This document shows, piece after piece, positions 19,569 to 26,086 of a stretch of DNA of 57,731 bases. The notes beneath the pieces are model-generated. The model saw only the letters and a program-made list of their open reading frames with translations. It did not search any database and was not told the origin of the DNA. Position 1 is the first letter of the stretch; every line of letters begins with the position of its first letter. The position numbers and the translations under genes were made by a program. This stretch comes from Porphyra umbilicalis (Eukaryota > Rhodophyta > Bangiophyceae > Bangiales > Bangiaceae), in the NCBI GenBank assembly GCA_002049455.2, contig KV919169.1, forward strand, positions 1-57,731, written 5' to 3'.

Positions 19569-19658
19569 GGTTGAATAGCTCAGTGGTAGAGCGAGTGGCT
19601 GCAGTCCACTAGGTCGCCGGTTCAAACACCCCGCGGGTTCAACACCCGGTTTCAACCT
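19569..19658 (+). tRNA. tRNA-Cys(GCA) with an 18-nt insertion in the T loop
   Basis: Acceptor arms GGTTGAA (19569-19575) and TTCAACC (19651-19657) pair perfectly, with T as discriminator (19658), as in all tRNA-Cys. The D arm is GCTC/GAGC and the anticodon arm AGTGG/CCACT with loop CTGCAGT, anticodon GCA. The T stem GCCGG (19616-19620) pairs with CCGGT (19646-19650) only if 18 nt (19628-19645, ACCCCGCGGGTTCAACAC) are removed. The loop is then a canonical TTCAAAC. The insert can form a 4-bp ACCC/GGGT hairpin. I infer an ectopic intron. The CCA end is not encoded. An alternative T arm using the downstream CGGG/CCCG has only 4 bp. Confidence 0.85.
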
Positions 19659-22204: not shown

Positions 22205-24154
22205 CTACGCCGCTGCCGCGGGTGGTTGCTCCCCCGCTGCCGCCGCCTCCCCCCCACCCACGTGTCCATTCCCGTCTGCCGCCGCAGCCGAGGCGGTCGC
22301 GTCGCCCCCCCCCCCCCCCCCCCCTCCCCCCCGCCCAGTTGTGGAGGACGCCGAGCCCCCCCGCGTCGTCCCCCCCCCGCGGCCGCGGGATGCCGTGCGC
22401 GTCGAGGACCTCGCCCATGCGCGCGGCGGCGGAGGCGCGCTCGACGACGACGGTCATGTCGCCCTCCAAGTCAAACCGGATGTACCGGGCGCCGTCGGCC
22501 GGGGCGGCGGCGAGCGCCGCCGCCGCGCCCGCCAAATCCCGCACCGCCGTGCCGTCAATGGCGAGCACCGCCGCTGGCAGCAGGTCGTTGAGGTGCTCGT
22601 ACCCGCGGTTGAGTGCGTGGCTGAGCACCTGCGCGAGGACGACGACTTGGTCCCCGGCGCTCGCCTTGCCCGTGTAGAGGGCGCGGTAGACGAGGCCGAC
22701 GGGGGCGTCGAGGCGCCACTCCTCCCCAAACTCGGCTTCGAGGTAGGGCTGCGTGAGCGCGAAAAAGACGAGGCCGGCGACGACGAGGAAGGGGGGGGCC
22801 GGCGTCGGATCGTGGACGGGGACGAGGCGGCCGGCGGCCATGGACGGCAGCTTGTACGTGACCGTGAGGGGGGTGACGGCGGCGGCCGGGACGGGGATGG
22901 GGGTGACGGGGGGGGTGCCGACAGGCGAGGGGGGGGCCGTCGGGTCCTGGGAGGGGGGCGCGGTCGCAGCTCCGTCGGCCGCAGTCGCGAGCGTAGCCGT
23001 GGCGGCGGCGGCGGCGGGCAGCGCGGCGGCAGCGTCGCCGCCCGCCCCCGCCACCACTCCATTGGACGCCGCCGCGTCTGGCGGGGGCACCCCCCCCCCC
23101 CCACGGCGCCGACCGGGCGGGCAATGCTCAAACTCACCTCGTCGCCGACAAACTTGGACGCGATGAGGTAGGAAAAGTGGATGCGCTCCCCGCGCCGAAA
23201 CGGCACGGTGCCCGCCGACGACACGGCCACCCCGTCAATGGCGGTGAGGACGTCGCCCCGCCGGAGTACCCGCGCCACGTCCCCACACGCGTCGACGCGC
23301 TTGACGAGGACGCCGACACCGTCGCCAATCGCGGCGGCGGGTGCAGCGGCCGTCGCATCGGCGGTGGCATCCTCCCCCGCTCGCGCCGACGGGAACGGCG
23401 GCGTGCCCCCTCCCCTCCCCCTGCGGCCGCCGCCGCTGCCGCCAACGCCGACGGCCGCCCGCAGCGGGCCGCTCTCCAACCGCTGCCAATCAAAGCCCGC
23501 GGTCGGGAACCCCGTGTACCGCCCGTTCCGCCCATAGTCGACCAGGAAGTGGTGCACGACCGCCGACGGGATGATCCACCCGACCGCCTCCGCGTCGGCG
23601 GCGGAGAGGCTTTGAAACGCCACGCCGACGCACGTGTTGTTTTCCGCAAACACGGGGCCGCCGCTGTTGCCCGAGTTGATCGCCGCGTCGATTTGGACGC
23701 ACAGCAGCTCCGCCGACCCATGGGCGTACGACGACATTTCAATGCGCGAGACGACGCCGGCGGTGATGGCCAAGTTTTCCCCGCCGAGGGGGTATCCGAC
23801 GACCGTCACCGAGTCTTGAAGGCGGGGAAGGGGGCCAAAGACCAGGCCCCCAGACGCGAGGCCGCCGTCTGCGCTGTCGCGGCCGCCCCGGCGGCCACCG
23901 CCGCCGCCCTTGACCGCCGGTAGGCGGCCCGTGCTAATAATGGAGTCGCCGGCCACGCCCCCCCCCTCGCCATCGTCCTCCCCCCAAAACGCCTCGTCGT
24001 CGACCACGAGGATGGCCAAGTCGCACTCGTTGCCGACAGCCGCCACCGACGCCGAGTACTTGGTGTCCCCCCCGCGCTTGCGCACTAGCACCGACGCCGC
24101 GTGCGCGACGCAGTGGGCGTTTGTCAGGATGACGGGGCGTCCCCCGCCCCCCTT

Positions 24155-24206
<52 letters not shown>

Positions 24207-24984
24207 CCCCCCCGTCGGGGGCAGCCACGACAAAGCCCGACGACGTGGACGACGACTGCCGCATCTTTTGCCACGGGAGCGAGTAGTTTGGCACCGAGTG
24301 CGTCACGTACAGCTTGACGCAACAGTCGAGGACGGAGGCGGGTAGGAAGTCGTCGTCTGCGTCCCACGCGTCGGCGAAGGGTGCCCCCGCCGCCGACGCG
24401 CGCGCGCGGCCGACAACGTCGGGGGAAAGGGGCGTGGCCGCGGGGGGGGCGTACGCGGGGGGGGCGCGGGCGGGGGGGTTTCCTTTGGCGGGGCCCCCGC
24501 GCCGCCGCTTCTTGTCGGCGGGCTTGGACTTGCCGCTGCCGCGGCGGGGCGTCGGCTGGGGAGGGGGGCGCCGCGCACGGCGCGCCGCGGGCGCCCCTGG
24601 CCGCGTCGCCGGCCGCACCAGTGGTCGGCCGGTGGCGCCGTCTGCCCCCGCGTCGGTGGCGCCGCCGGCGCCACCGCCACCGCCGCCGCTGCCGCAGCGG
24701 TCGGGCGGCCGGTGGCGGCCGGTGGCACCCCCGGCGGCGGCAGCCGGCGCGCCCGCCCGTGCCATGGCGACCGCCGCGGGGGGCGCCACGCGTCGCTGCA
24801 GTGGCGGGTGGCGGGCGCAGGCCGGTATGACCGCCGGCCGCCCCGGCAGGGCCCCCCCTGCCCAGGCGACGGGGGCGGCGAGGAGCGGCGACCCGGGTGG
24901 GCCGGCAAAGGCGGCGACGGGTGGTGGCGTCCCCCGCGTCGGGGGCAAGGTGCGGTTGAGCGCAGCCGGCACAAAGCGCCCCAT
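22205..24984 (-). CDS. DEG/HtrA-type serine endoprotease (DEG9/DEG10-like) with C-terminal PDZ domains
   Basis: The start is ATG at 24984 (MGRFVPAALNRTL); the frame is open further upstream but only from a TTG. A long Ala/Pro/Arg N-terminus has a basic patch (KSKPADKKRRRGG), possibly for nuclear or organelle targeting. The chymotrypsin-fold protease has all three catalytic residues: His in LTNAHCVAHA, Asp in NECDLAILVVDD, Ser in INSGNSGGPVF. VVSRIEMSSYAHGSAELL is characteristic of plant DEG9/DEG10 proteins. A first PDZ (DVARVLRRGDVLTAIDGVAV) follows, then the C-terminal PDZ-like region with VVVLAQVLSHALNRGYEHL and ending near AHGIPRPRG. Frames change at three homopolymers: C9 near 24213 next to a (GCC)n tract, C14 near 23090, and C-runs at 22301-22327. 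The last piece gives a TAG at 22205-22207, so the 3' end is inferred. At the first change a short GT...AG intron is an alternative. Confidence 0.85.
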
Positions 24985-25965
24985 GGTGCTGGTGCCAGGG
25001 GGGACGGGGGGCGGGGGAGATGAGGGTGGCCCGGCAGGCGTTGGTGGGGCGGCCGAGTGGCGGTGGACGCGACGGCGGGGGGAGGGGGGTGGGGGGTAGC
25101 GCAGCGCCCGAGACAAAGTGCAGAGTTAAGGGGGGCGGGAATAAATGTATGAGTAGCAGCAAGGGAGCCAGGCCCCACTGTCACCACAACAGCAGACGGT
25201 GGTCGCAGCGGCAGCGTCGGCAAGGCCGCCGTCGCACCGACGGCGCGCACCGATGCGGCCACCACCGTCGCCGACAAAACGTCGAAAGACCGGGACTCCC
25301 GGCGGCTAGACAGGTGCCGCACCTTCTCCGGCACCAGTGAAAAGGACCACCAACAGGAAGAGCAGTCGTGGCAGAGGCGAGCGTCGGGACGGTCGGGGCG
25401 GCGCGAGGCCGGGGTCGCTCGTCGGCGGCGGGTGGGAGGGGCGAAAACGGAGGCGTTTGGGGCGATCTCGGTTCGCACGGCGGGGTGGAGCGCCTTTCCA
25501 TCCAGCGGGCCCGAAAAACAACCAACAAAATCAATTACAGCTCATTCTTGTGGTTCATGCAATTTATTTTTGTGACACGTGTGTAACGTCTGCTACTTTG
25601 ACCATACAGTATCCCCACCGGACACGGGCTCGGAGGAGACATCCACCATCGTCGTTGCCTTTCCCATTTAAGCCACAGGTGACGAAAACGCCTCGTCCTG
25701 TCAACTTTTCTCGTTCGAAAGTCGCAAGAGGGGGGTCCTTCCCTTCACATCCGCGGATGTTTCGCCACCGCACGAGCTCCAGGGCTGCTAACGGCGGTGG
25801 GATGTCGACCTCTCTTTGCGTGCTGAGACCATCGACTGGCCAAGCGGGAGTCAGTTTCTATGCTCGCGTGGAGCGAGAGCGGTCAAAGAACAAGACTGCA
25901 CCTTGTGATCAGTGCTCCGTTATCGTTGGATACAAACTATTTTAGATATCGGCTGCTGTCGAGGT
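24985..25965. other. Upstream region of the DEG-like gene
   Basis: GC-rich to about 25500, then AT-richer (25500-25960), which probably holds the divergent promoter space between the protease and tRNA-Val. I see no gene or clear element. Confidence 0.4.
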
Positions 25966-26061
25966 GCGGTTGTAGCTCAGTGGTTAGAGCGTCTGTCTTA
26001 CACACAGAATGTCGTGGGTTCAATTCCAGTAGCGTCTGTTCGGAAATCCCCATCAGCCGTA
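25966..26061 (+). tRNA. tRNA-Val(TAC) with a 23-nt insertion in the T loop
   Basis: Acceptor GCGGTTG (25966-25972) pairs with CAGCCGT (26054-26060, two G-U pairs), and the discriminator A (26061) is right for Val. The D arm is GCTC/GAGC and the anticodon arm TCTGT/ACAGA with loop CTTACAC, anticodon TAC (25999-26001). T-stem GTGGG (26014-26018) is followed by loop TTCAATT, but its partner CCCAT lies at 26049-26053, so 23 nt (26026-26048) interrupt the T arm exactly where tRNA-Cys in this window is interrupted. Within the junction TTCC can pair with GGAA, leaving small bulges as in a bulge-helix-bulge substrate. Removing the insert gives a canonical 73-nt tRNA. CCA is not encoded. Confidence 0.85.
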
Positions 26062-26081: not shown

Positions 26082-26086
26082 TTTTT
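26082..26086 (+). terminator. RNA polymerase III T-run after tRNA-Val
   Basis: Five T residues 20 nt after the tRNA, the likely Pol III terminator. Confidence 0.65.

Follow-up and report, generated by a model that had tools for sequence, protein, structure and literature searches.

Reports of ectopic introns in nuclear tRNA genes, as cited in the reviews consulted (PMC3978253, PMC4090602, PMC4033280), concern a single extremophilic red alga and nucleomorphs, a restriction that fits explanations based on genome reduction or on a hot, acid habitat. In the red alga, Cyanidioschyzon merolae, introns were described in the D, anticodon and T arms, with more than 62% of nuclear tRNA genes bearing introns and at least 12 bearing several (PMC9602550). 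The same alga has permuted tRNA genes (PMC3978253), and a table from 2014 names it as the eukaryote in which tRNA genes have multiple introns (PMC4033280). As for its splicing endonuclease, the account in PMC4090602 has no Sen15 subunit identified. In the nucleomorph of Guillardia theta, 3-nt T-arm introns were found in the genes for tRNA-Cys(GCA) and tRNA-Val(AAC), their excision was observed by RT-PCR, and some genes contained two or three introns (PMC4090602). Many nucleomorph tRNA introns of this organism are described as having no defined bulge-helix-bulge (BHB) motif (PMC3978253).

The window analysed here is the whole 57,731-nt stretch of Porphyra umbilicalis DNA, corresponding to contig C409 of an 83.8-Mb genome assembly with 665 contigs; from its GC content, its contig and its Pol III-like features, we infer that it is nuclear. 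A tRNA-Val(UAC) gene occupies positions 25966-26061 of the plus strand (tRNA positions 1 and 73, respectively), exactly where the sequence-only reading had placed it, and it displays the announced 23-nt insertion in the T loop (Table 1). Its 5' part comprises the acceptor strand GCGGTTG, the D arm GCTC/GAGC, the anticodon arm TCTGT CTTACAC ACAGA and the variable region ATGTC. The T arm reads GTGGG (stem) and TTCAAT (loop), followed by the 23 extra nucleotides and by C CCCAT CAGCCGT A. Without the insert, 21/21 cloverleaf pairs form, and all columns that are invariant across the 14 tRNA types assembled in this study are retained, so that the exons appear undamaged. The 3' half (CCCAT CAGCCGT A) alone restores all T-stem and acceptor pairs. 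The chance of such a 12/12 match within 60 nt was about 1.1% for this gene and 0.1% for the tRNA-Cys gene described below (first-order Markov model, local composition); this pairing taken alone is thus moderate evidence, and it is the genome-wide pattern that decides. The gene scored 42 bits with the Rfam tRNA model (gathering threshold 29), the alignment ending at 26034 because the insert was not placed by the model, and ARAGORN did not report it.

Table 1. Coordinates of the two interrupted tRNA genes in the window and of associated features.
Feature	Position	Strand	Basis or remark
tRNA-Val(UAC) 5' exon, positions 1-59	25966..26024	+	Direct reading; Rfam RF00005, 42 bits; all cloverleaf pairs once spliced
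tRNA-Val(UAC) anticodon TAC	25999-26001	+	Within 5' exon
Proposed 23-nt T-loop intron of tRNA-Val(UAC), 59/60	26025..26047	+	Same site as paralogue-defined Thr(CGT) inserts; compatible with Val(CAC) insert
tRNA-Val(UAC) 3' exon, positions 60-73	26048..26061	+	T-stem and acceptor pairs 12/12; unspliced minimum-energy fold retains cloverleaf
T-run, probable Pol III terminator of tRNA-Val(UAC)	26082..26086	+	TTTTT, 20 nt downstream of gene
tRNA-Cys(GCA) 5' exon	19569..19626	+	ARAGORN, Rfam, spliced cloverleaf
Proposed 18-nt T-loop intron of tRNA-Cys(GCA), exact boundary ambiguous	19627..19644	+	Cys genes of contig C26 have inserts at same place
tRNA-Cys(GCA) 3' exon	19645..19658	+	T-stem/acceptor pairing; T-run 15 nt downstream

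The first intron bases of tRNA-Val(UAC) (window 26017-26027), as well as those of two tRNA-Cys genes from contig C26 (L043 and L044), extend what we take to be the B-box consensus (GGTTCAATTCC, GGTTCAAATCC), and the internal promoter may therefore survive the intron in these genes. This continuation was absent from the eMet and Thr introns. Beside the tRNA gene, on the minus strand, lies an open frame (window 22454-25180) with a Pfam Trypsin_2 match of 60.8 bits and, by eye, an INSGNSGGP motif; it is probably a gene for a Deg/HtrA-type protease.

The tRNA-Cys(GCA) gene of the window (19569-19658) likewise carried its insert at the matching place of the T loop, as previously claimed, and again 21/21 cloverleaf pairs formed once its 18 nt were removed. 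Three more genes of this type were found on contig C26, each interrupted at the same place of the T loop by 14 nt that differ in sequence from the window insert; a DNA search returned exactly four tRNA-Cys(GCA) genes, all of them (4/4) interrupted in the T loop. The C26 copies displayed an additional D-loop insert, from which the window gene is free, and this comparison places the D-loop site unambiguously at 20/21. It was also observed that, within window 19626-19658, the Cys intron contains GGGTTCAACACCC, a mimic of a second T arm and thereby a possible competitor for the same 3' strand; similar G/C pairing was displayed by the C26 copies, but with a loop devoid of TTC.

A genome-wide tRNA search had been proposed by the sequence-only reading as a check, and a survey of this kind, which is not exhaustive, yielded 33 nuclear tRNA genes in which the cloverleaf could be read. 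They were collected through Rfam (63 of 1,261 first-look candidates scored, giving 49 matches, 25 of which lie on plastid contig C665 and were left out of the 33) and through two A-box/B-box patterns, which cover some tRNA families only and allow gaps of up to 50 nt. These patterns gave 41 and 31 matches (72 in all), of which 20, beyond those already in the set, had their sequence examined. Since reversed-pattern controls still gave 22 and 13 matches, a match was kept only when it formed a full readable cloverleaf. Several candidates were dropped by eye. L036, L038 and L040 (contigs C62, C60 and C77) share similar flanks (tgttattgtcta...) and look like a dispersed tRNA-derived repeat, while L037 and L039 have AT-rich flanks and look organellar. 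In the A-box/B-box matches L055-L060 (C151, C26, C12, C30, C264 and C163), the 3' half completes no tRNA; several of them are alike, perhaps as short interspersed elements of tRNA origin. Genes for Leu, Ser, Ile, Tyr, Phe, Trp, Pro, His, Gln, Asp and initiator Met did not appear outside C665 in the census, and may be missed or more disrupted.

At least one insert was present in 19 of the 33 genes, and seven genes contained two. T-loop inserts were the most frequent (12 genes, spread over nine contigs and with intact exons), followed by D-loop inserts (10) and by anticodon-loop introns (4). The first category comprised, besides tRNA-Val(UAC) (23 nt) and the window tRNA-Cys (18 nt), the three C26 tRNA-Cys genes (14 nt), three eMet genes (11 nt), one Val(CAC) gene (11 nt) and three Thr(CGT) genes (14, 16 and 18 nt). 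D-loop inserts occurred in Lys (C163), Cys (three on C26), Val(CAC) (four), Asn (C432) and Arg (C249), and anticodon-loop introns, recognized by eye, in three eMet genes and in Thr(UGU). After removal of the inserts, 11 of the 14 spliced types had no mismatch. The genes are not all independent, as the two Val(AAC) genes of C515 lie inverted to each other with identical downstream sequence, and as introns are shared between two C26 tRNA-Cys genes. When the 19 intron-bearing genes were submitted to ARAGORN (bacterial code), only one (Cys) was returned with the anticodon as read here; three came out different or unresolved and 15 were unreported, so that a standard finder fails on the intron-bearing tRNA genes of this genome.

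Comparison of copies of the same tRNA gave access to the insertion sites, since Thr(CGT), Lys(CTT) and Val(CAC) were each represented by copies with and without an insert. The Thr(CGT) gene of contig C14 reads TTCGAATCCCAG without any insert, and its three paralogues read TTCGAA-[insert]-TCCC, with the insert between A59 and T60; they define the 59/60 site, unambiguously in two of the three cases. One of the four Val(CAC) copies contained an 11-nt T-loop insert, with allowed cuts from 57/58 to 60/61. In Lys(CTT), a 15-nt D-loop insert was found in one copy, at 20/21 or 21/22, and three copies were free of it. The sequence-only reading had put the tRNA-Val(UAC) insert after position 60. Its location in the T loop holds; as for the exact point, the sequence of the gene alone allows 58/59 or 59/60 (position 60 then being C) as well as 60/61 to 62/63 (position 60 then being U), and the Thr(CGT) paralogues of the same genome favour 59/60, that is, a putative intron at 26025-26047.

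If an intron at 59/60 is presented in a BHB motif, a helix is expected between positions 54-57 and the four nucleotides of the intron that come just before its last two. Over the 11 distinct T introns, this central helix reached 33 of 44 possible pairs compared with 18.4 in shuffled introns, and none of 20,000 shuffles was as good, a probability to be read, like the other shuffle P values, as optimistic since the helix had been spotted by eye in the Thr and Val(CAC) introns, which were then both included, and since copies of a family are not independent. Without the Cys introns, the figures were 27 of 32 pairs and 14.6, respectively. A full 4-bp helix flanked by 3-nt bulges was observed in Val(CAC) of C288 (UUCA/UGAA) and in the Thr genes of C30 and C187 (UUCG/CGGA). 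These were also the three introns, among the 11, for which the expected helix belonged to the minimum-energy fold; the other eight folded differently. The eMet copies displayed three of the four pairs, with a G-to-A difference that preserves the pair to U55. In the three distinct Cys introns, three, two and one of the four pairs were present.

The expected helix of tRNA-Val(UAC) itself (UUCA with GGAA) displayed three of the four pairs, which gave a P value of 0.146 when this intron was considered alone. Its unspliced minimum-energy fold kept the cloverleaf and contained a UUCC/GGAA helix of 4 bp, with a 3-nt AU^C bulge next to it; the 3-nt 3' bulge was thus present and a clean 5' bulge was absent. 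By comparison, the unspliced Cys transcript lost its D and anticodon arms when folded at minimum energy. Folding energies were unexceptional (z of -1.49 and -1.43, with 16 and 20 of 200 shuffles as good). Among D introns, the full 4/4 helix occurred in five of nine distinct sequences (P 0.0075; summed pairing P 0.026). Those of Lys and Cys C26b had the full helix with bulges at 20/21, those of Asn and Cys C26a three of the four pairs, and those of Val C236 and Arg two.

Homologues of splicing enzymes are encoded in the genome. Those of Sen34 (contig C104, 66.6 bits) and Sen2 (C7, 37 bits) had the solved chains of these two subunits as best matches, and in the alignments Tyr, His and Lys fall at what we take to be the triad positions. 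A Sen54 N-terminal domain (C25, 49.3 bits) and an RtcB homologue (C294) were also found. A search with the Sen15 profile (PF09631), run exon by exon for this short and divergent family, gave no match in the genome.

Expression signals were consistent with transcription by Pol III. A run of at least four Ts started within 45 nt downstream of 31 of the 33 nuclear genes. Control stretches of 49 nt contained such a run in 7 of 32 cases when taken upstream and in 69 of 504 when taken farther away (14-22%), still well under the downstream rate; the window-wide background was 6.4%, a value that comes from sequence richer in GC than the tRNA flanks. Upstream AT content reached 0.62-0.68 between -50 and -31 (32 genes, no formal control), which agrees with the proposal that transcription in C. 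merolae is TATA-directed (PMC3978253). The plastid contig C665 (185 kb, GC about 0.3 in the stretches read) carries, by eye, phycobilisome genes and homologues of ilvB, argB, ftsH and dnaK (names as we read them). In the best 120 of 7,910 matches, its TrpA was 76-77% identical to that of named Bangiales (Pyropia, Wildemania), 53-57% to that of named florideophytes and cyanobacteria, and 94% to an environmental cluster, which identifies the source as a bangiophyte red alga.

Taken together, these observations make it very probable that the 23 extra nucleotides form an ectopic tRNA intron at 59/60, removed from a Pol III transcript by Sen cleavage and ligation to give a standard tRNA-Val(UAC). 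This reading draws on the gene anatomy, the genome-wide set, the paralogue-defined sites, the set-wide pairing enrichment and the enzyme genes, from which we infer transcription, cleavage and ligation. The gene would be transcribed by Pol III, and in the precursor the T stem would stay closed while T-loop positions 54-57 pair with the 3' part of the intron. Both splice sites would then lie in short bulges flanking the helix (a BHB or a relaxed form), where a Sen2/Sen34/Sen54 endonuclease could cut them, and a ligase, plausibly RtcB, would join the exons. The insert most likely belongs to a system of D-, anticodon- and T-loop introns of the C. merolae kind. The sequence-only reading had proposed T-arm introns and a splicing system able to handle them, a proposal reinforced by the inserts of Cys, eMet, Val(CAC) and Thr(CGT), which differ in sequence but lie at a compatible T-loop site, by the D- and anticodon-loop inserts and by the splicing-endonuclease homologues.

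A different view would be that the tRNA-Val(UAC) locus is a pseudogene, in which a random T-loop insertion was never removed from a dispensable tRNA copy. Val(AAC), read as IAC, could cover GUA codons, so that Val(UAC) may indeed be dispensable, and the BHB is weak in this copy. Moreover, according to the review that discusses them, D- or T-arm insertions that affect a single member of a large synonymous gene set in a eukaryote are usually read as marks of pseudogenes (PMC4090602). Yet, this would leave unexplained the undamaged exons, the T-run downstream, the compatible inserts in four other tRNA families and the interruption of every tRNA-Cys(GCA) gene found. The sequence-only reading had held that tRNAs free of such inserts, along with an intact Val(UAC) elsewhere and a silent locus here, would speak against an intron. 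Ordinary T loops were indeed present in 21 of the 33 nuclear genes, but partial searches (Rfam candidates, A-box/B-box pattern and DNA search) revealed no second Val(UAC) outside the plastid contig. The DNA search of the genome with the gene returned only itself, and the one other Val(UAC) seen (anticodon by eye) lies on C665. On balance, a pseudogene is improbable.

Still less credible is a mature tRNA that would retain the insert, either within a larger T loop or in the form of a long variable region, although ARAGORN calls the window Cys gene as a 90-nt tRNA-Cys and the second T arm mimicked within its intron could be invoked. A 30-nt T loop would not make the contact between D and T loops at the elbow, the C26 tRNA-Cys copies do not have TTC in the corresponding second loop, and copies vary in insert length and sequence while their exons are conserved: Cys inserts measure 18 or 14 nt, Val(CAC) has either 11 nt or no insert, and Thr has 14-18 nt or no insert. 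Least of all would we retain an assembly or sequencing artefact: the draft is repeat-rich, GC-rich and split into 665 contigs, but such an error would hardly recur in T loops of nine contigs between intact exons, nor would it produce intron-exon pairing beyond that of shuffled introns over the whole set. An ectopic intron thus remains the preferred reading.

A more tentative proposal, which we would not put at even chances, is that in this lineage introns have recently been gained and lost preferentially at T-loop 59/60 and D-loop 20/21, in individual copies that are otherwise near-identical, some introns (Cys, perhaps Val(UAC)) having relaxed below a recognisable BHB. If true, the genome would be a living record of tRNA intron turnover, and such relaxed introns would point to a bangiophyte nuclear endonuclease with broad substrate recognition.

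Searches of an open-licence library listed no bangiophyte among the organisms reported to have ectopic tRNA introns. Our results support the view that the Porphyra inserts extend a known red-algal trait; what appears to be new is that they occur in a bangiophyte genome that is large and GC-rich, and that they are spread as a mosaic over the copies of a given tRNA. The finding of introns in the D, anticodon and T loops in a large, repeat-rich genome of this group suggests an older or wider trait within red algae. As some tRNAs have copies both with and without introns, they offer a direct route to studying intron gain and loss.

Among the systems compared, Crenarchaeota and other archaea share intron positions such as 20/21 and 59/60 and a BHB or relaxed motif, as listed in PMC4090602, but they belong to a different domain of life and their endonuclease is archaeal. 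The Guillardia nucleomorph shares T-arm introns in tRNA-Cys(GCA) and in a tRNA-Val (there Val(AAC)) and the several introns of some genes; its T-arm introns are, however, 3 nt long, in contrast to 11-23 nt in Porphyra. Cyanidioschyzon differs from Porphyra in that the genome of the latter is about 84 Mb and GC-rich, with several multicopy tRNAs whose copies differ in intron presence and sequence. The published accounts also give points in common: a red alga with introns in the D, anticodon and T arms, several of them in some genes, BHB or relaxed BHB motifs such as those proposed for Porphyra, Sen2, Sen34 and Sen54, and TATA-like upstream elements; Sen15 is not reported there, and the exon-by-exon profile search gave no match in Porphyra.
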